DNA from: Terriglobia bacterium
GTDB taxonomy: Bacteria; Acidobacteriota; UBA6911
Direction of reading: 5' to 3'
DNA: 64,000 nucleotides
NCBI GenBank assembly: GCA_020072565.1
Contig: JAIQGI010000021.1
Span: 1-64,000, forward strand
A program made the translations under genes and the position numbers. Position 1 is the stretch's first letter; each line of letters opens with the position of its first letter. Shown in pieces: positions 37,101 through 60,232 of the stretch. Below the pieces are notes generated by a model. The model was not told the DNA's origin, did not search any database, and saw nothing but the letters and a program-made list of their open reading frames with translations.

Positions 37101-37907
37101 TCAGCCCTTTCTGAAGGCAATCTTTCCCTGATATCCCAACGGGATGCCCACAACCTTGAACACCCCTGTGGACGCGCCGTCGCCCAACGGCACCGTGATT
37201 TCCGCCGCCCACGCGAACTGGTCTGACACTAGAATCGCCTGGAACACGCGCCCCAGCAAAACGTCGTAGTCGGGGTTATAGCCTGTCATTTCCCACGGCT
37301 CTATCAGCCACGTACCATTCACGTGCTGTCTCCTGTGCGTCGTGTAGTATCCGATCAGGTTGCCGCGCGTAACCCCGGTGTATGAAGTCGCCCCTCTTTC
37401 TCGGGCGAACGTGCTCACCCAACTATTTGAATCCCAGGTGCCAGCGTTGAGGCGTGGTCCGCGCGTGCACCAGTACATCGCAAGCACCGATGAAAACGAG
37501 TCCGGCGTCTGGTCAAGCATGCCCACCGCCCAGCACTCCGGCGTTGTGCGCTCCGTGTTCACGCAAACGTGAAACTCGCCGGTGTAGTAGTGCACGGTCG
37601 TGCCGGTTCCGTCGATGTCCTGGCGCGTGTCCGTTTGGTTGTTGATGAGCAGCCCCATGTGGTCTTTGGCCATGTACGCCATGCGTGTAGCCGAGATGCG
37701 CGAGCAGTTCAGGGTGATGAAAACGCCATCGCTGCGCGTCGGCGACTTGAACTCAGTCGGCGTCTCTCCGACGCCACCTACTGGGCAGGTCCAGCCGCCG
37801 TTGGTCACCAGCTCCGTATACAGGTCGTTGATGATCGTCTGAACGTCCACGACCGCCAGGGCCTCCTTGTATCGAAAAGTCGAGTTCCAGTGCGCCGGTA
37901 TGCCCAT
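37101..37907 (-). CDS. tail appendage paralogue A' (third in array)
   Basis: 268 residues. Most like the first copy: DVQTIINDLYTELVTNGG, TEFKSPTRSDGVFITLNCSR, LLINNQTDTRQDI, TPECWAVGMLDQTPDS. It closes with TGVFKVVGIPLGYQGKIAFR, matching TGVFKILGLAAGYSCKFAVR in copy one. The ATG at 37907 shares a base with the stop of the upstream gene (TAATG). Between the conserved ends the sequence is variable, as expected for proteins that contact changing receptors. Confidence 0.7.
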   Translation of the reverse strand: MGIPAHWNSTFRYKEALAVVDVQTIINDLYTELVTNGGWTCPVGGVGETPTEFKSPTRSDGVFITLNCSRISATRMAYMAKDHMGLLINNQTDTRQDIDGTGTTVHYYTGEFHVCVNTERTTPECWAVGMLDQTPDSFSSVLAMYWCTRGPRLNAGTWDSNSWVSTFARERGATSYTGVTRGNLIGYYTTHRRQHVNGTWLIEPWEMTGYNPDYDVLLGRVFQAILVSDQFAWAAEITVPLGDGASTGVFKVVGIPLGYQGKIAFRKG

Positions 37908-38761
37908 TATCCACTCCTCATGCAGGTCATGAACGACGACGCGCCGTTGTCTCCGATGACGCCGCCGATTACGCGAAACTCGCCCAGCACGCCCGTGTCG
38001 ATCGGCACGTAAACCAGCGCGCCAAACGCCAGGGATGCAGGACAGAGCAACGCCTGGTGCCGCTTGCCTGCAAAGTGAACGTAGCCATACATGCCGCCGG
38101 CGCCCGTCTGCTTGCACCACATCTCGACCGGCCGATACACGCGCGCGCCACTCAGCGTTTTGCGCCCCACCGCTGCACCCGACTGCCAGTGCCTGTATAA
38201 GCCGCCCCTGCCAGTCGACAAAACTGCCGTCGTGTCATCGACCATGGCTACCTGATCCCAACAGTTGTTGGACTTCGTGTCTGCCGCGTCGCGCGAGCCG
38301 CCGCCGTACACGTAGTGCTGATGAGCGCCTTGAGGGTCCGGACTCTGATCGAGGATTCCTCCGTACAAGGCCTCGGCCGCTGCCGAACCCATGAACACGT
38401 CGATCAGCGCATGAAACGGACCGGTGAAAATGCGCACCGTCCAGCCGTTCGTTGATGGACAGTTGATGCGCCTGGTGCAAATCGACACGAGGTTCTGGTC
38501 TCTTATCTCCATCGAGAGTTTCTGCTGCGTCACGCGCGTCAACACCACCTTGAAGAAACGGCCAATGCTGTCCACGGGCGACTTGTAGACGCCGCCGCCT
38601 TCACTCGTCCACGCCGCCCATTGCACACCAGGCGCGCCCATGCTCGGCGCGATCGTCGACAGCACCTCGTCCTCGAAGTCGTCGATGATGGTCTGCACAT
38701 CGGTCACGCCTTTGCGTTCAAAGTATCGAAACCCCGAACTGAGGAAGTACGGAACGGCCAT
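37907..38761 (-). CDS. tail appendage paralogue B (second in array)
   Basis: 284 residues. It starts AVPYFLSSGFRYFERKGVTD and contains VYKSPVDSIGRFFKVVLTRV, EIRDQNLVSICTRRI and GGILDQSPDPQ, shared with the fourth copy. The start ATG overlaps the stop of copy one (TGATG). It ends with YVPIDTGVLGEFRVIGGVIG, the counterpart of LPIDVGQSGLFLVSGI in copy four. The role is inferred from position. Confidence 0.7.
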   Translation of the reverse strand: MAVPYFLSSGFRYFERKGVTDVQTIIDDFEDEVLSTIAPSMGAPGVQWAAWTSEGGGVYKSPVDSIGRFFKVVLTRVTQQKLSMEIRDQNLVSICTRRINCPSTNGWTVRIFTGPFHALIDVFMGSAAAEALYGGILDQSPDPQGAHQHYVYGGGSRDAADTKSNNCWDQVAMVDDTTAVLSTGRGGLYRHWQSGAAVGRKTLSGARVYRPVEMWCKQTGAGGMYGYVHFAGKRHQALLCPASLAFGALVYVPIDTGVLGEFRVIGGVIGDNGASSFMTCMRSG

Positions 38762-39588
38762 CAGCTTTTCCTCACCGCAAATTTGCACGAGTAGCCCGCC
38801 GCCAGGCCGAGGATCTTAAATACGCCCGTGGTGTTTCCGTCTAGCGGCACCGTGTATTCCGCCTGGTTGACCAGACCCCAATCGGTCATCAGCCAGTTGA
38901 ACATGCGCCCCAGCAAGTACTCCGTGTCGATCACCTCCATGGGCAAAAAACACAGCGTCCCTGCCACCGTGTAGCGGTCGATATACTGATTCGTGTAGGG
39001 ACTCCTGGTGTCGATGATGGCGTATGAGTCGATAGCGTAGGAAGTCGCGCCCACCTTCAGCGTGAACCATGGCCTGCCGGTGTTGTTCTGAAGCGCGCCG
39101 TCGCTGTTGCGTCTTGGGCCCGCGGATGCGTAGTAGCAGGCGCGCGGCATGCCCAGCGGCTCCGGCGTTCTGTCCAAAACGCCCGCCGCCCAGCACTCCG
39201 GCGTCCCCGCTGCCGCGCCCTCCGAATCCACGACCACGTAAAACGGGCCCGTATACAGACGCACCCAGATGCTGCTCCCCGCCCTTATGTCCTGCCGCGT
39301 GTCCATGTCGTTGTTTACCAGCAGCCCCGCTGCATCTCTGACGACGTAGGCGATCCTCGTCTGGCTGAAGCGCGTGCAGTTGATGGTGAAGAAGACTCCG
39401 TCGCTCCGGGCTGGCGACTTGAACGCGGTAGGCGATTGGGTCTTCCCTCCAAGGGTGCAGGTCCACTTGTTTGCTGATGCCGGATTCGTGACCAGCTCCT
39501 CGTACAGATTGTCAATGATGCTCTGCACGTCCGAGATCTGCGACTCTTGGAACCGAAACGGCGCATCGAGAAATGCGGGGACTGCCAT
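38761..39588 (-). CDS. tail appendage paralogue A (first in array)
   Basis: 275 residues. It starts AVPAFLDAPFRFQESQISDV and has LYEELVTN, TAFKSPARSDGVFFTINCTR, LLVNNDMDTRQDI and GTPECWAAGVLDRTPEP, all shared with the third copy. It begins just after the stop of the large tail protein and overlaps the second copy by the TGATG junction, so the four genes are translated as one coupled block. Confidence 0.7.
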   Translation of the reverse strand: MAVPAFLDAPFRFQESQISDVQSIIDNLYEELVTNPASANKWTCTLGGKTQSPTAFKSPARSDGVFFTINCTRFSQTRIAYVVRDAAGLLVNNDMDTRQDIRAGSSIWVRLYTGPFYVVVDSEGAAAGTPECWAAGVLDRTPEPLGMPRACYYASAGPRRNSDGALQNNTGRPWFTLKVGATSYAIDSYAIIDTRSPYTNQYIDRYTVAGTLCFLPMEVIDTEYLLGRMFNWLMTDWGLVNQAEYTVPLDGNTTGVFKILGLAAGYSCKFAVRKS

Positions 39589-46840: not shown

Positions 46841-47946
46841 TTATGTTGGCTTGAAGTTCGGCCACATGGACTTGCCGCTTGAATGCAAATCCAAGGCGTC
46901 GCGCACGAGTTCGACATTCTTGGTCGCCTCAAACACCGCTTCAACGTCCCTCTTCGGATACGGGTTCTCTTTCAGACCACACTGTAGGCAGCACCGAGGG
47001 TCTTTTTTAAGCAGACCGCAATGACGGAGGTGCAGAGTTTCGTGCCGGATTTCGTCCTGCGCCTTTTGGTCGCCAAGCAGCGGGAAGAGGTCCGCAAAAC
47101 ACTCCTCCCGCCCGCACTTGGCATCATCGCGCAATAGCCGATAGCCGCGAAGGCTCTTGCCCAGAACCTTCGCGACTAGCCGTTTTTTACTGCCACGCGG
47201 CTGAAGACACGGTTGACGAAAAACAGCTTGTCGCTCAGTTGCAGCTTGGGAAGCCACGCGTTCTTGTTGGCTTCCGTGCAGGGCTGATCGTTGATCAGGT
47301 AGCCGCCGAGGCCCGTGAGAAGCGAATCCGCGAGCTGCTCGATCGCATCCCAGTTGATGCGCACGATTTGCCGGCGGCCCTTCGTGACTTGCTTGCCGGC
47401 ACGCTTGTGGCGGATCCGATCTTCTTCCGTAACCCGGCGGTGCTTGAAACTCACCGGTATGGCCGTCACGGCGTCAAGTTCCGGCACATACAGCGGCCGC
47501 TTCGCCTTCACTTCCTGCTCTGCGCTTCCGAGCACCAGCTTCAGTTTGCCCGTGCCCTCCTCGCCAGCCACAATCAGGTTGCCGTAACCTTCCGTGTAGA
47601 TGCGCGCTTTGATCTGTGGATTGGCATCAAGCCAGGCGAGCATTTCTTCCTTCGTGGCCTCACCCTCAATGCCCAGGATGCCCCGGAAATGCTTCGTGAC
47701 AAATGCCCGCACGCCGGCATCGTCGCCGGCTTCAGTTTCGGTTTCATCGGGAAGGTCCGACGCTTTGGTTCTCGGCATCAACTCGTCAAGGAACGCCCTA
47801 ACCTCATGCGCACCGGTCTGCGCGTCCATGGCGAAGTAGCCCATAACATCCTGGCCGCCTTGCTCAAATTGTAGTGGGAAAATGACCTCGTCTCCGGAAA
47901 GCTCGTAGACCACTCCATCCTGCTTCACGACTGCGACATTGCCCAT
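46841..47946 (-). CDS. tail assembly chaperone, -1 frameshift fusion product
   Basis: The second frame runs from the slip site at 47188-47182 to a stop at 46841 and has no own start with a ribosome-binding site. Read through a -1 slip, the fusion continues from RVAV-K as K-R-L-V-A-K-V-L-G-K, and ends with a Cys-rich extension (HLRHCGLLKKDPRCCLQCGL) and VFEATKNVELVRDALDLHSS. Total length is about 368 residues. Equivalent G/GT pairs in lambda and other tailed phages make the short form in excess and the fusion in minor amounts; both coat the tape-measure protein during tail assembly. The position just before the tape measure fits exactly. Confidence 0.75.
47142..47188 (-). promoter_or_regulatory. 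programmed -1 ribosomal frameshift signal
   Basis: The minus strand has the slippery heptamer A AAA AAC (47188-47182) in the correct phase: the zero-frame codons are AAA AAC and the stop TAG follows two codons later. Seven bases downstream a perfect 8-base stem begins (CGCGAAGG / CCTTCGCG; 47174-47167 with 47153-47146), which extends to 12 pairs with one G-U wobble by including the TAG (47178-47142); the loop has 13 bases. A -1 slip enters the only open frame, which runs 114 more codons to 46841. Confidence 0.85.
47176..47946 (-). CDS. tail assembly chaperone, short form (G-like)
   Basis: 256 residues from the ATG at 47946; the frame extends upstream by 18 codons without support. Sequence: NVAVVKQDGVVYELSGDEVI, an acidic middle (KASDLPDETETEAGDDAGVR) and a C-terminal domain with AWLDANPQIKARIYTEGYGN and KLFFVNRVFSRVAVKNG. 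No recognised family; the assignment rests on its place between tail-tube and tape-measure genes and on the frameshift signal at its end. Confidence 0.72.
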   Translation of the reverse strand: MGNVAVVKQDGVVYELSGDEVIFPLQFEQGGQDVMGYFAMDAQTGAHEVRAFLDELMPRTKASDLPDETETEAGDDAGVRAFVTKHFRGILGIEGEATKEEMLAWLDANPQIKARIYTEGYGNLIVAGEEGTGKLKLVLGSAEQEVKAKRPLYVPELDAVTAIPVSFKHRRVTEEDRIRHKRAGKQVTKGRRQIVRINWDAIEQLADSLLTGLGGYLINDQPCTEANKNAWLPKLQLSDKLFFVNRVFSRVAVKNG

Positions 47947-48018
47947 CCAACTGTTCTCCCAAAAAGAAAAAAGGCGAGGTTCCTCTCGTCCATCCGGCAA
48001 CCCCGACCCTGACCCGAC

Positions 48019-48432
48019 CTAACTCGTGCTTCTGGTGATCGGCGTGTTGATGCCAATGTTGATCGTCAACTCCTCGGCAGTGCCCACTGCTCCGGAGATC
48101 AAGGGGATCTGCCCCATGAAGCCTGAGAAGGAAAACTCCGGATTATCTGCGCCTTTGACTGCACGTTTGCGTCGCATGATGAACGGCACCAGCTGCCCCC
48201 TGGTGTTCCACAGAAGTTCGTCCACGCTGCCGGCGCCATAGTTCTTAAACATCTTCGCGCTCGCCGTGGGCTTCTCCAGGCCGGGCACATAGACATGGCA
48301 ACTGTCACCGCTTGCCGTCGATTCGATCTCATCGAGTGCGAAGTTGAGCTGAATTTCCGACACCTGATCGGAGATGTCATTCCCGTCCACACTGAGGAAC
48401 GGATCTTTGATGACTTCAACCACAGCGGTCAT
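48019..48432 (-). CDS. tail-tube-like protein 2
   Basis: 137 residues beginning TAVVEVIKDPFLSVDGNDIS, close to the start of the larger neighbour (TAIVNIIKDRKVYLGGVDLS). It contains VSEIQLNFALDEIESTASGD and SCHVYVPGLEKPTASAKMF, matching LTLEFDMKECTTFSDSSHVN and APGLSKVTLNQKGF in the other gene. The protein is thus a shorter paralogue of the probable major tail protein. GGAGGA lies before the ATG at 48432. Confidence 0.68.
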   Translation of the reverse strand: MTAVVEVIKDPFLSVDGNDISDQVSEIQLNFALDEIESTASGDSCHVYVPGLEKPTASAKMFKNYGAGSVDELLWNTRGQLVPFIMRRKRAVKGADNPEFSFSGFMGQIPLISGAVGTAEELTINIGINTPITRSTS

Positions 48433-48503
48433 TGAAACTTCCTCCAAAAATGAAAAAGGTCCGGATCTCTCCAGGCCTCGTTAAAGGTCCACTCCTCACA
48501 GTT

Positions 48504-49196
48504 CTATGCGATTCCGGCCACCACGAACACCGTGGTCGGACCGACGGCCGTTATGACTGCACGCCATTGAGCGCCGGCAATAGGACCGTCTACTACTTTG
48601 TAAAGCGACCCCGGCCCTGCCGTCTGCTCAAAGGTGATCTTGTCTGCGCCGTCTATCTGAATGGAGCCGCTCGCACTGCCTTCAAAGACATGCAGGGCTG
48701 CAAACATCCTCGATCCAGCAGGAACCGCCCCGAGGTTGTATGCCGTCCCTTGATGCGCGCCATCGGCGAGCGTTGCCTTCGCCATGAGAATCGTGCCGCG
48801 AATCACGGCGCCGCCCGCCTGGCTCATATTGAAGTCGAAGCTCGGCAGTTCTCCCACAGCCATGCGCGGTGCATAACTCAAACCCCATGCCTTCGTGAAG
48901 TAGGCAATCTCTCCTGCCAGGCCGCCCTTCTGTGTTACGGACACGGGAACCCCAGCCTTGCCCAGCCGCGCCACCAGCGTCTCATCCACAAGCCCCTCGC
49001 CGAAGCTGACGAATCCCTTCTGGTTCAACGTCACCTTGGATAACCCTGGAGCGTTGACATGTGAACTGTCCGAGAACGTGGTGCATTCCTTCATGTCAAA
49101 CTCCAGAGTGAGGTTCACTTCATTTTCATCTCCGCTCAGGTCCACGCCGCCCAGGTACACCTTGCGGTCCTTGATAATGTTGACAATCGCTGTCAT
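48504..49196 (-). CDS. probable major tail (tube) protein
   Basis: 230 residues, beta-rich. The N-terminal 140 residues align with the neighbouring small paralogue; the C-terminal 80 (ALHVFEGSASGSIQIDGADK, ITAVGPTTVFVVAGIA) form an additional domain. Location between connector genes and the tail chaperone is that of the tail-tube gene in siphophages. AGGAGGG precedes the ATG. Confidence 0.72.
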   Translation of the reverse strand: MTAIVNIIKDRKVYLGGVDLSGDENEVNLTLEFDMKECTTFSDSSHVNAPGLSKVTLNQKGFVSFGEGLVDETLVARLGKAGVPVSVTQKGGLAGEIAYFTKAWGLSYAPRMAVGELPSFDFNMSQAGGAVIRGTILMAKATLADGAHQGTAYNLGAVPAGSRMFAALHVFEGSASGSIQIDGADKITFEQTAGPGSLYKVVDGPIAGAQWRAVITAVGPTTVFVVAGIA

Positions 49197-55144: not shown

Positions 55145-55864
55145 ATGGCGGTCAAGTCCTATTTTGATGGAAGCGGGGACCCAGGCAACAGATCAGAGAG
55201 GTACCTGACGCTGGGATCCTATTCAGGATCAGCGAACGCTTGGCAGCATATTGCGCCAATTTGGTCAAAAGTTTTGGATAAGCACGATGCTGCATACCTT
55301 CATATGTTTGAGGCGGCTTCCCTTAAGGGCGAATTCAGAATCAGTAACGGATGGAATCGCGACCGAGTAACGCGGCTTCTTCTTGACTTGGCCGACGTTG
55401 TGAATTGCTGGCATGAACGAACACTTTTACCGGTCGTAGTGTCGGTAGAAATGAATTCGTACGCAGCAACCGCGTTGACAATGCAACACAATAGTCAAGT
55501 ACTCCGTGCTGCAGCCGTATGTAGTGTTCAGTGCTGCCAAAGAATCCTGGGGTCATTAAATCAAAATCCAGCAGATTCAAATTCCACAATAGAAATCTAT
55601 CGGGATGATCGAGACCCTTATCTGGGTGAGTTAGTCAATGATTGGAGGTCCATTCGGATTCGACGTGAGCAGCAGATACTCAACAAAATTGATAAAATTG
55701 AGGCAGTCGACATGAAAGAGACCCCAGGAATCCAAATGGCAGACATGATTGCTTGGACGGCGCACAGATGCCTGACGTACCCTGAGGACCAGAGAGCCCA
55801 GATGCTTTGGTTGGCATTGAGAGTCGTCGAAAACAAGATTCTCGGGGGATCGAATCCAGCCTAG
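55145..55864 (+). CDS. DUF3800 protein
   Basis: 239 residues of DUF3800, a family with an RNase H-like fold and likely metal-dependent nuclease chemistry. Family motifs: KSYFDGSGDPG at the start (Asp8, Asp12), YLHMFEAASLKGEF, IEIYRDDRDPYLG (Asp154, Asp155) and TPGIQMADMIAWTAHR near the end (Asp200). The conserved acidic residues are all present. It is the first gene of a two-gene plus-strand cassette and ends 18 bases before the large PNP-STAND gene. The ATG at 55145 has only a weak ribosome-binding site. DUF3800 genes occur often in defence islands and mobile elements, but their function is not settled. Confidence 0.85.
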   Translation: MAVKSYFDGSGDPGNRSERYLTLGSYSGSANAWQHIAPIWSKVLDKHDAAYLHMFEAASLKGEFRISNGWNRDRVTRLLLDLADVVNCWHERTLLPVVVSVEMNSYAATALTMQHNSQVLRAAAVCSVQCCQRILGSLNQNPADSNSTIEIYRDDRDPYLGELVNDWRSIRIRREQQILNKIDKIEAVDMKETPGIQMADMIAWTAHRCLTYPEDQRAQMLWLALRVVENKILGGSNPA

Positions 55865-55882: not shown

Positions 55883-58800
55883 ATGCGGAATGGTCCGAGC
55901 TCTAATCCCCTGTTCGGCATAGTTACAGCTCTGCCCATCGAATTTGCTGCGATAAAGGCTATGCTCGACCGGCCACGTGATCTTCAAGTCGATGGAGATC
56001 CAAATGATTATGTCGTTGGCACCATCTCGGCGCTTGGCGGTGGCAAGCACACGGTAGTTGGAACACTCTTAAAGAAACCCGGGAACAATAGCGCTGCGAC
56101 CGCAGCAGCCGATCTGCTTCGCAGTTTTCCGACGGTAGAAGAAGTCCTCATGGTTGGGATAGCTGCCGGCACACCCAATCCCGAGAAAGTAGATCTTCAT
56201 GTCCGTTTGGGTGATATCGTCGTGTCTGATGTCTCGGGCATTCTGCAGTACGATCTTGTCAAGCTCTCGAACGGCATTGTTGAGATTCGCAGCACCTCGG
56301 CGCCTCCGTCTGCACGTCTAATAGGCCGGCTTCACATTCTAGAGGCAGATCGTCTTGCTGGAAAATATCCTTGGGAGCACTTCATCGCACGGGCAAATCA
56401 TCTTGAAGGTTGTGGGCGACCGGACGCAGGAACGGATCGATTATTTTCGTGCGCAATCCCACCGGCCGAGATCGCGCATCCAGAAGATCCGTATCGTACG
56501 CGACGGCCCGGCCTTCCCAAAGTGTTCTACGGCAGGATAGGGTCGGCGAACACACTACTTCGAGATTGTAAGCTACGGGATCGTCTACGAGACCAATATG
56601 ATGTACGCGCCATTGAGATGGAGGGATCAGGAGTTGCCGATAGCACATGGACGCACCAACAGTCGTATTTGGTGATTCGTGGGATTAGCGATTACGGCGA
56701 TGGACATAAGAATGATCTTTGGCACGGTTATGGCGCCGTCGTTGCGGCCGCATTCGCGCGGGCGCTACTTGAAGCGGTTCCGAGCAAGGCAACAGGCAAG
56801 AAACGCAACAAGCGTACCATAGGAGCTCGATCAAGCCTGCAGGGACGCAAATCTACTGACCGGCGAGCACTTGAGCGATTGCGCCATCTGACCGCGATAG
56901 TTCGTGACGACGCTCGCGAAATTCCAGGTTCCGGACCAGAATCCAGACCAATCTATCTCGATGAATCCTTGTACGTGCCACGATCCATAGAGCAAGAACT
57001 GGAACATCTGATTGCTGACGCTATGATCGCTGACCCTGTCGTCGCGGTTATAGTGGGTGAAGCAGGAAATGGGAAGACCACACTGCTCTGGAAACTCCAT
57101 CATGCGCTTACCAACCAATCAAGGTGGGAACCGTGGTTCCTCAAGGCAAGCATGTTATCAATGAAGGAGCATGAGGAAGCGACCGGCAGATTCGACATAA
57201 GCGACATCCTTCAGGCAATCAATGCCTTAAAGACAAAGAAACCAATTCTCTTTCTGGATACTGTCGATCTCCTTCTGCATAGTGAACGCGAGCGGGATGC
57301 CTTGTTGGAACTGCTTGTAGCCCTACGCAGTCATAACTGTCCAGTGATTGCCACTTGCCGACCCCAGGAGGCGACTCGCTTGCGTAGCGCTGGGGCGCAC
57401 CACCTCATGCTAGGCCCATATACGAAGACGGAGCTTGATGAAGCCGTAGCAAAGCATGTCGCTCGGTTTTACAAAAATGCTGTCCCTCGTGACCGGCAGG
57501 AACATCTCCTGAGAATTCAGGAAGCTGTTGCACTTGGGCTTCCGATACGGGAGATCTGTTCAATTCCTCTTACACTCCGGATGCTGTTCAGCCTCTATGC
57601 GCCTGAAGAAGTACCCGTTGAGATCCATGCCTTCCGTTTGTATGACGAGTACTGGAAGTCCCGCGTCGTCCAAGACGTGCGAGCTGGAAGCCTCCCAGCG
57701 GACCTGGCGAATAATAGCCTTGAAAGGTCTTGCTGGCTTGCGTCCCTGACCATGCTGGCCGAAGGTACGCCCGAAATTGACGAAAGAAGAGTCGAACGGG
57801 TGCTTTCAGAGTTTGGCGCTTCACCAGAAGATATATGGAGGCTTGCGTCAAGGGCAGTCATTCGCCGCTCTGAAGCAGGCACTATCAGCTTTTTTCACCA
57901 GACATTCTTCGAGCATAGTGCAGCACGAGCAATATTAGGTCTGATGGGCACTGCAGGCCTAGCATTGATGCGTCGCCGGATAAAAGCATCACCGAACGAT
58001 CTTTTTCTTAGTCCCATCCACGAACAACTGCTTCTGCTTAGTGAATTTGACGTTTCGCTTAGGAGTCAGGGGAACTCAGCCCTTGCAGAACTTCTTTCGA
58101 TAGAGGGATATCCCAGAATGTCTGGGATTTACGTGTATGCTCACCTTAGCAATCCTACGGTTGAGATCTCAACTACCATCAGATCGTTGCTGACGAATGA
58201 AGAGACGGCCCTCGTAAAGAGGTTTCTTCAAGTTGCTCCCAACATGCCAGGTTCAAGACTTCGCATGCTCTTTGAGGAACTAGGGAGCATCTGGTGCCGC
58301 AATCAGTGGACAGAGCGACAACATGTTCTTGAATTGCTCGAGCGATTGGGTTCTCGTGACGCGCTCTCGGTCAAGGAGTTTCTCGAACGGCACTCGATTT
58401 TCGACCACGTCCTCGCTATGCCTGCTTCTGCAGGCCCGGGTGATCGCAGACTGCTTCGCGTTTTGCACGCAATCGCGCCGGGTTTTCCAGAATGGACCTG
58501 GGGGTGTCTCATCCAGCTATATGCTAAGTCCCTTCCTCGAGCTGAAAGCAGGCAACTCCAAGTGGCAATCCTCGATACTATATGCGCGCGTGCGAGCACT
58601 TTTTCTCCTAGTGGTATTGCGAGACGATTCGAGGACGCCATTTCCGGAGCGGCAAATAAACCCTACACCAATGATTTCGATGACCTTACGCGGTCAGCAG
58701 GGCGCCTCTGGGCAATCGAGTGGAAGGAGAGTGGAATCCAGATTAGATCGATTCTAGAGGAGCTCGCCAAAATGGAGGACGGCTTGGGATTGCGAGCTAG

Positions 58801-60232
58801 GCTCAATGGCCTCAGTTACCTCCTCATTGAGTCGAGTGAGGTCGAAGCAAAGCGCGCTTTTGATGTGTTCAAAGGAGAAACCGACGTTTTTCGACTCTGG
58901 CTTTGGAGCATGGTCGTCTTTCCCAACTGGCTTCGCGGCAACCGAGGAGACATCGGTTCCGCCCAGACAACCGATAGTGTCAGATTCCTCCGTCGAAAAA
59001 CGAGGACCGTGCTCACGCTCATTGCCTCTGAGAAAGAGACGTTGTTGGCCCCGATGCGACGCGCATTGATAGAGGCCTCTCTACCTCCAGAAATTCTGCT
59101 GGAGATCCTCAGCGACGTACATCAAGACGAATGGCTCGACCCTGATCGCCTGGCAGAACTTCTCGCTGATGCTGCTCTTGCGAATCACCCAGCGGCCTCG
59201 CGGGCTCTGGAACAACTGATTTCTGACCCCAAAATGTTCAGTCAGTCGACTGCGTCCATGGTGTGCTCACTATTGGCTCGCAGGGCTCAGCAAAACCGTC
59301 GAGCTGTTTTTAAATTAATTCAGTTATCGGTGAAGATCAGAGATTCAGTCCGTCTCTTCAGAGCACTGGCCATGCTCGAAGGACCTGTTGAACCATGTAT
59401 TCTTCGGTACGCCTCGCAACTGGACCATTTTCGGCAAAGTCTAGTTGATTCTACAGCAGGACAAAGCCGGCGCATTGGATTAATAATATGGCTCCATTTG
59501 CTGCGCCTCGGACTGGTACCGGAACCGATATTGTCAGAACTTCAGGGACGATTCCAAAAAGAAAGCGATTTACGCGCGCGGGCCTCCATCGCACGTCTGA
59601 TTGCACAAGCAAGTATTGGTCCCGGCTCAACATTAAAAGAGATTGTAGATATCCTAGGGCCCATGTCACTGGCAACTGATGAGGACTTACGGACGCAGGC
59701 ATTTGACGCTCTTGCTCGGGCAGTTGCCGAGCGCTCAAATGATCCGGATCTTTACGCGAAAGTTCTCGATATCGCCTTGACCCAGCCGACAAATGCCGGC
59801 CGACTCTCCATGGTCGGTCATCTCGTCACCCGTCTCCTGCCGCAGACCCCAACACACGCCCTGGAAATGTTCGAGCGGCTTCTGCTTTCGCCACAAGTAG
59901 CTGCGATGGGCGCGCAGGCCAAACGAGTACTCATCAACCGTCTGCGGACTCCTGCTCGGCATCTTGTTTCGTCAATCTCATCGACCGATCGGTTGCAGCT
60001 TATCGGCCACGTACCAGGTCTTGATCGCTTTCTGGGTCGGCTCGTCATCGAAGCGATCTGCCATGAGGCGTTCGATTCCGTAGTGCCCCAACTGGATGCC
60101 CTTCTTCAAACAAAGCTTGATGGCGATATTAAAGAACTCATCCGGCGCCAAAAATACCAACGAGAAAGAACACTTGGTGGAGACCAGTGGCCCGAAGTCC
60201 TCCAGGCGGTTCGAAATAAGAGCAGGCTCTAA
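55883..60232 (+). CDS. PNP domain-STAND NTPase-helical repeat protein (NLR-like)
   Basis: 1449 residues. Residues about 10-290 are a purine nucleoside phosphorylase/nucleosidase domain: FGIVTALPIEFAAIKAM (Glu20), VGIAAG (91-96), AIEMEGSG (243-250, Glu247) and VIRGISDYGD (Asp270) match the catalytic and base-binding positions of MTA/SAH nucleosidases. A basic linker (about 296-330) leads to a P-loop NTPase: Walker A GEAGNGKT (392-399), Walker B PILFLDTVDLL with Asp459, and VIATCRPQEA as sensor. About 550-640 looks like a winged helix (SRAVIRRSEAGTISFFHQTF). The last 800 residues are helical repeats without signal or membrane segments. Effector-NTPase-sensor order is that of STAND/NLR immune proteins. 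AAGGAGGT precedes the ATG. Confidence 0.85.
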   Translation: MRNGPSSNPLFGIVTALPIEFAAIKAMLDRPRDLQVDGDPNDYVVGTISALGGGKHTVVGTLLKKPGNNSAATAAADLLRSFPTVEEVLMVGIAAGTPNPEKVDLHVRLGDIVVSDVSGILQYDLVKLSNGIVEIRSTSAPPSARLIGRLHILEADRLAGKYPWEHFIARANHLEGCGRPDAGTDRLFSCAIPPAEIAHPEDPYRTRRPGLPKVFYGRIGSANTLLRDCKLRDRLRDQYDVRAIEMEGSGVADSTWTHQQSYLVIRGISDYGDGHKNDLWHGYGAVVAAAFARALLEAVPSKATGKKRNKRTIGARSSLQGRKSTDRRALERLRHLTAIVRDDAREIPGSGPESRPIYLDESLYVPRSIEQELEHLIADAMIADPVVAVIVGEAGNGKTTLLWKLHHALTNQSRWEPWFLKASMLSMKEHEEATGRFDISDILQAINALKTKKPILFLDTVDLLLHSERERDALLELLVALRSHNCPVIATCRPQEATRLRSAGAHHLMLGPYTKTELDEAVAKHVARFYKNAVPRDRQEHLLRIQEAVALGLPIREICSIPLTLRMLFSLYAPEEVPVEIHAFRLYDEYWKSRVVQDVRAGSLPADLANNSLERSCWLASLTMLAEGTPEIDERRVERVLSEFGASPEDIWRLASRAVIRRSEAGTISFFHQTFFEHSAARAILGLMGTAGLALMRRRIKASPNDLFLSPIHEQLLLLSEFDVSLRSQGNSALAELLSIEGYPRMSGIYVYAHLSNPTVEISTTIRSLLTNEETALVKRFLQVAPNMPGSRLRMLFEELGSIWCRNQWTERQHVLELLERLGSRDALSVKEFLERHSIFDHVLAMPASAGPGDRRLLRVLHAIAPGFPEWTWGCLIQLYAKSLPRAESRQLQVAILDTICARASTFSPSGIARRFEDAISGAANKPYTNDFDDLTRSAGRLWAIEWKESGIQIRSILEELAKMEDGLGLRARLNGLSYLLIESSEVEAKRAFDVFKGETDVFRLWLWSMVVFPNWLRGNRGDIGSAQTTDSVRFLRRKTRTVLTLIASEKETLLAPMRRALIEASLPPEILLEILSDVHQDEWLDPDRLAELLADAALANHPAASRALEQLISDPKMFSQSTASMVCSLLARRAQQNRRAVFKLIQLSVKIRDSVRLFRALAMLEGPVEPCILRYASQLDHFRQSLVDSTAGQSRRIGLIIWLHLLRLGLVPEPILSELQGRFQKESDLRARASIARLIAQASIGPGSTLKEIVDILGPMSLATDEDLRTQAFDALARAVAERSNDPDLYAKVLDIALTQPTNAGRLSMVGHLVTRLLPQTPTHALEMFERLLLSPQVAAMGAQAKRVLINRLRTPARHLVSSISSTDRLQLIGHVPGLDRFLGRLVIEAICHEAFDSVVPQLDALLQTKLDGDIKELIRRQKYQRERTLGGDQWPEVLQAVRNKSRL

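Follow-up and report, generated by a model that had tools for sequence, protein, structure and literature searches.

The window analysed here, a stretch of 64,000 nucleotides from a Terriglobia bacterium (source genome: a 7.46 Mb draft in 135 contigs), carries prophage tail genes on its minus strand, among them a putative tail assembly chaperone gene that overlaps an extension open in the -1 frame. The features of the locus are listed below in the direction of reading; C54 denotes a second copy found in the same genome.

48504..49196, minus strand: second major tail (tube) protein (PHROG 9522, E 3e-28)
48019..48447, minus strand: major tail (tube) protein (PHROG 4574, E 5e-15)
47176..47946, minus strand: putative 0-frame tail assembly chaperone (G analogue), 256 aa, ATG start, ending AAA AAC GGC TAG
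47182..47188, minus strand: candidate slippery heptamer A_AAA_AAC, in phase here and unchanged in sequence and phase across the seven lineages compared
47175..47181, minus strand: 7-nt spacer GGCTAGT, containing the 0-frame stop TAG, of equal length in six of the seven lineages
47142..47178, minus strand: entire stem, with 16 pairs possible, the outer four less conserved
47146..47174, minus strand: presumed stimulatory hairpin, 12 bp with a 5-nt loop (29 nt), based on stability and covariation
46841..47188, minus strand: putative -1 extension (T analogue), 115 codons plus TAA, Cys/His-rich (C25, H56, C57, C67, C70), C-terminally truncated
46879..46880, minus strand: junction of an 85-nt out-of-frame deletion, from comparison with C54
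42654..46802, minus strand: tail length tape measure protein, 1382 aa (PHROG 991, E 5e-45; Pfam PhageMin_Tail)

The likely start of the 0-frame gene is the ATG at 47946, which has GGGAG upstream and was preferred over a TTG at 48000, and on the minus strand the gene ends with ...GCA GTA AAA AAC GGC TAG. As claimed in a preliminary description of this DNA, A_AAA_AAC lies in the correct phase near the stop (47188..47182, followed by one sense codon and the TAG at 47178-47176), and the -1 frame runs without a stop from the heptamer to the TAA at 46841-46843. Neither the 0-frame protein nor the -1 extension matched Pfam or PHROGs, a result that may reflect absence from these libraries and does not by itself argue against family membership. 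The predicted structure of the 0-frame protein (pLDDT 75, pTM 0.73) gave weak viral Foldseek matches (E 0.01-0.5), the best of which included tape measure chaperones and Mu FS-gp41, and the best E obtained with Foldseek against the PDB was only 0.028. With VIA-align, the model matched 3fgx (Z 6.1) and the HK97 tail assembly chaperone 2ob9 (Z 3.0), in both cases over the C-terminal half. The predicted structure agrees weakly with a chaperone fold and falls short of proof. The likeness to Mu FS-gp41 and to tape measure chaperones from several tailed phages is a weak one of predicted structure, and no sequence similarity to them was detected. In the same model, residues 1-128 and 132-256 (window 47179-47946) show much the same succession of strands and helices, which suggests that the protein may have arisen from two tandem copies of a chaperone domain; at the sequence level this internal duplication had weak support (hhalign probability 5%). 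The predicted structure of the extension (pLDDT 68) had no meaningful match among viral structures.

Comparison was based on seven lineages, namely the window group, which comprises C54 (94% identity) and the viral contigs L008 (86%) and L009-L011 (79%), and the more distant L005/L012, L007/L013, L022 (partial), L028, L029-L031 and L032, of which the last three were detected via a profile of the extension. The 0-frame proteins of the distant relatives, where complete, shared 20-26% identity. A genome of the same class as the source (G019) was found to carry two chaperone loci, and a tblastn search with three queries against 50,697 phage records yielded no match. The divergent set of 0-frame proteins contained no stretch of sufficient conservation for a profile search of viral contigs. 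In all relatives A_AAA_AAC is in phase and the 0-frame stop follows after 0 or 3 bases; the -1 extension is present in every confirmed relative, and a strong hairpin lies at equal distance in nearly all. Conservation in related phages, the check proposed in the preliminary description, was thereby confirmed for the heptamer, its phase, the position of the stop and the extension; counter-evidence was sought in the form of related phages with one in-frame gene or a changed heptamer, and the outcome was the opposite. The gene order described there, between tail tube and tape measure, held in the window and in the relatives whose flanks were scanned: a PHROG 4574 gene lies upstream of the chaperone gene in the window, L012, L013, L028, L029 and L032, and a tape-measure family gene lies downstream of it in the window, L010, L012, L028, L029 and L032. 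As a separate observation, the two major tail (tube) proteins encoded in tandem at 48019-49196 belong to different families (PHROG 4574 and 9522).

The motif AAAAAAC alone is ordinary in the window (6 seen vs. 7.9 expected). Its combination with the other elements is not: among 12,121 simulated ORFs, none had an in-phase AAAAAAC at the 3'-end together with a -1 extension of at least 100 codons, and 14 had any such site of the XXX-YYY-Z type. The codon that provides the first A of the heptamer varies across relatives (GTA, CGA, TCA, ATA, CTA, GAA), and codons ending in A make up 12-20% of the total in their chaperone genes; GTA accounts for 0-6% of Val codons in the window group, and roughly half of the Glu codons of L029 and L032 are GAA. 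Since this codon differs among relatives and codons ending in A are few, it is apparently the nucleotides of the heptamer, rather than an amino acid, that are conserved for their own sake.

Downstream of the heptamer, the stem reported in the preliminary description was recovered seven bases away, with CGCGAAGG and CCTTCGCG forming a perfect 8-bp helix; outward pairing lengthens it to 12 bp, one of them a wobble, and inward pairing (UUCU/AGAG) brings the total to 16 bp, two of them wobbles, around a 5-nt loop. The 91-nt region had a minimum free energy of -45.5 kcal/mol (z -4.44), which none of 200 shuffles equalled, and the 69 nt counted from the heptamer gave a folding z of -4.59. A search against Rfam returned nothing at the gathering threshold. 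The alignment of heptamer, 7-nt spacer and 29-nt hairpin is gap-free in all lineages but L005, in which a different hairpin begins 6 nt downstream; L029 has a poor hairpin (z -1.7). In the alignment, 84.4% of cells were standard pairs under the proposed pairing vs. 39-47% when the partner was slid by 1-3 bases, and changes on both sides were found in seven of the 16 pairs, including six of the 12 in the main helix. The covariation score was 0.415, compared with 0.234 ± 0.037 in shuffles, for a set of only eight distinct rows. Because this region is also coding in the -1 frame, protein constraint could explain some of the pairing, yet the slid controls argue against its being the sole cause.

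The extension evolves as a protein in the -1 frame: in the four close relatives its dN/dS was 0.07-0.20 in that frame vs. 1.0-2.9 in the other two, and the 0-frame gene had values of 0.06-0.09. It is homologous across all lineages, with invariant residues K1, K2, C25, E28, F31, G39, R48, C57, L60 and C67, and H56 and C70 are kept in most relatives.

These results were weighed against three other readings. Two ordinary overlapping genes would leave the -1 frame to be translated from a start of its own, for which the window offers a GTG at 47257 (L010 and L005 have one at -69) and the window group a TTG 54 nt past the heptamer. No equivalent of the GTG at 47257 exists in C54 and L008, the closest relatives, where the -1 frame is closed 24 nt and 12 nt upstream of the heptamer, respectively, and where a search for start codons of the extension found none before the TTG at +54. 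That TTG lacks a clear Shine-Dalgarno sequence and lies downstream of the hairpin, and initiation there would drop the conserved N-terminal part of the extension, so that separate initiation cannot yield its conserved beginning in these two copies. In the preliminary description the extension lacks a start signal of its own; C54 and L008 have no usable start, and the window has the -1-frame GTG. Separate translation would also leave the invariant heptamer and the covarying hairpin unexplained, and it was given very little credence. Scarcely more probable is transcriptional slippage on the A run, by which mRNAs one A short (or two longer) would encode the fusion. The run of six As (seven in L029 and L032) speaks for it, and by inference from known cases a downstream hairpin could help the polymerase to slip. 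Six As, the length in most lineages, is however a short run for slippage of this kind, which would moreover need neither the C after the run (always AAC, never AAA or AAG) nor the phase A_AAA_AAC, both of which are invariant. Also against it are the 7-nt spacer to the hairpin, fixed in six of the seven lineages, and a distant candidate (L037, see below) that uses G_GGA_AAA, with four As only.

A third reading, that a chance frameshift mutation or a sequencing error split one gene of a dying prophage, draws on real damage in this copy. The window lacks 85 nt near 46880 with respect to C54, the flanking sequence of both being nearly identical, and the -1 reading frame changes at the deletion, leaving an extension of 115 codons (155 in C54, L008 and L010) whose final 11-12 residues bear no relation to the ends of the other copies. 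Judging from the sequence, the GT product of the window copy is probably impaired and this copy may be decaying. Its frameshift signal is nonetheless intact, and the second copy in the same genome, C54, compared over L004 35-499, is intact at the deletion site. The two-frame layout recurs in all independent contigs and genomes, and dN/dS is well below 1 in both parts. Conservation across seven lineages contradicts a pseudogene, which was regarded as barely credible. The contig of C54 starts close to the chaperone gene; between the tail tube and chaperone genes of that copy (L004, approximately 1290-2420), about 1.1 kb with an extra reading frame was observed that is not in the window.

The best explanation, to which we assign a probability of about 0.94, is that the prophage makes G and GT chaperones by a programmed -1 frameshift of the lambda type. 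It is based on the sequence signal and its conservation, the covarying hairpin, selection on the extension as coding sequence, the order of the genes and weak fold similarity; that the slip occurs, how efficient it is and what G and GT do are inferences. The frameshift in the tail chaperone gene proposed in the preliminary description is thus supported, at the level of sequence, by the comparison across seven lineages. Under this programmed frameshift, the majority of ribosomes would terminate at the TAG and release the 256-residue chaperone (G). A minority would be paused by the hairpin 7 nt downstream with tRNA-Lys and tRNA-Asn on AAA AAC, the two tRNAs would re-pair one base back on AAA AAA, and reading would enter the -1 frame, producing a GT fusion with the Cys/His-rich extension. 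By analogy with lambda, G would form a coat on the tape measure protein, T within the GT fusion would bring in tube subunits, and the G:GT ratio would thus be important for tail assembly.

The attributes of the G/GT kind appear to be present here, namely the gene order, the heptamer and a selected extension without its own start, as does a downstream structure, which is frequent but not universal in that kind and is represented by a covarying candidate hairpin at 7 nt. As in lambda G/GT, the pair lies between tube and tape measure genes, the -1 slip would take place at a heptamer close to where the first gene ends, the extension is without its own start, and a ratio of two products would result. 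The heptamer of lambda G/GT is G_GGA_AAG, unlike the A_AAA_AAC found here. Further differences from lambda are a simple and strong hairpin whose 7-nt spacer is fixed, a Cys/His-rich extension, both parts being without a Pfam or PHROG match, and a 0-frame protein of 256 aa that is longer than the 100-140 aa usual for such chaperones. In the lambda-type scheme, mostly G and some GT are made, and T links tube subunits to the tape measure (PMC5009743); a conserved -1 G-T frameshift of long-tailed phages is attributed there to Xu, Hendrix and Duda (2004). The same source gives A_AAA_AAC as the g-t frameshift site of the haloarchaeal virus HCTV-2, whose host, in contrast to the present one, is archaeal, and reports that A_AAA_AAC is far less shift-prone than A_AAA_AAG in E. 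coli (PMC5009743).

The mechanism is already known from phage G/GT, and what is new is this well-supported example. A deeply diverged, unannotated chaperone family would join the G/GT group, and its compact module of heptamer, spacer and hairpin gains direct covariation support; annotation pipelines would label the two parts as unrelated hypothetical genes. The strict use of A_AAA_AAC is of mild interest, since this heptamer is weak in E. coli and shared with HCTV-2, and it offers a testable point on slippage in a little-studied bacterial phylum. One tentative and rather unlikely account is that acidobacterial phages keep A_AAA_AAC, described as strong with mammalian ribosomes and weak in E. 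coli, because host ribosomes or tRNA-Lys/tRNA-Asn slip differently, that the 7-nt spacer and the 29-nt hairpin are tuned accordingly, and that the long G and the Cys-rich, possibly metal-binding T form a separate type of chaperone. Queuosine was considered as the reason for AAC and set aside: a TGT-family enzyme is encoded in the genome, but also in 14 of 14 control genomes.

A weak profile match (E 1.8e-4 among 396 genomes) was found in another genome of the phylum (L037, 1003-2435). Its 0-frame end reads CTG GGA AAA TAG, with G_GGA_AAA in phase directly before the TAG, its -1 extension comprises 137 codons with several Cys residues, and at this locus (L044) an ORF of 359 codons lies upstream and one of 1333 codons downstream; the region past the heptamer folded no better than shuffles. 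If L037 is a true relative, the shift would have been retained with the heptamer changed to a lambda-like one, a lead that lies outside the core evidence. Another match (L036 in G267; E 1.7e-4, one of the 396 genomes) had no candidate -1 heptamer near its end and was too weak to count either way.

Elsewhere in the window, three alike ORFs of 275-340 aa (FRYKEALAVVDVQTIINDLYTELV, FRYFERKGVTDVQTIIDDFEDEV, FRFQESQISDVQSIIDNLYEELV) lie in tandem at 37101-39588, with no Pfam match. At 55883-60232, a 1449-residue protein combines a PNP/UDP phosphorylase-like N-terminus with a STAND/NACHT-type NTPase and matched the PADLOC Effector model and, weakly, Avs4; a DUF3800 protein (55145-55864) adjoins it, and from its sequence the pair looks like an antiphage defence gene and its neighbour beside the prophage.
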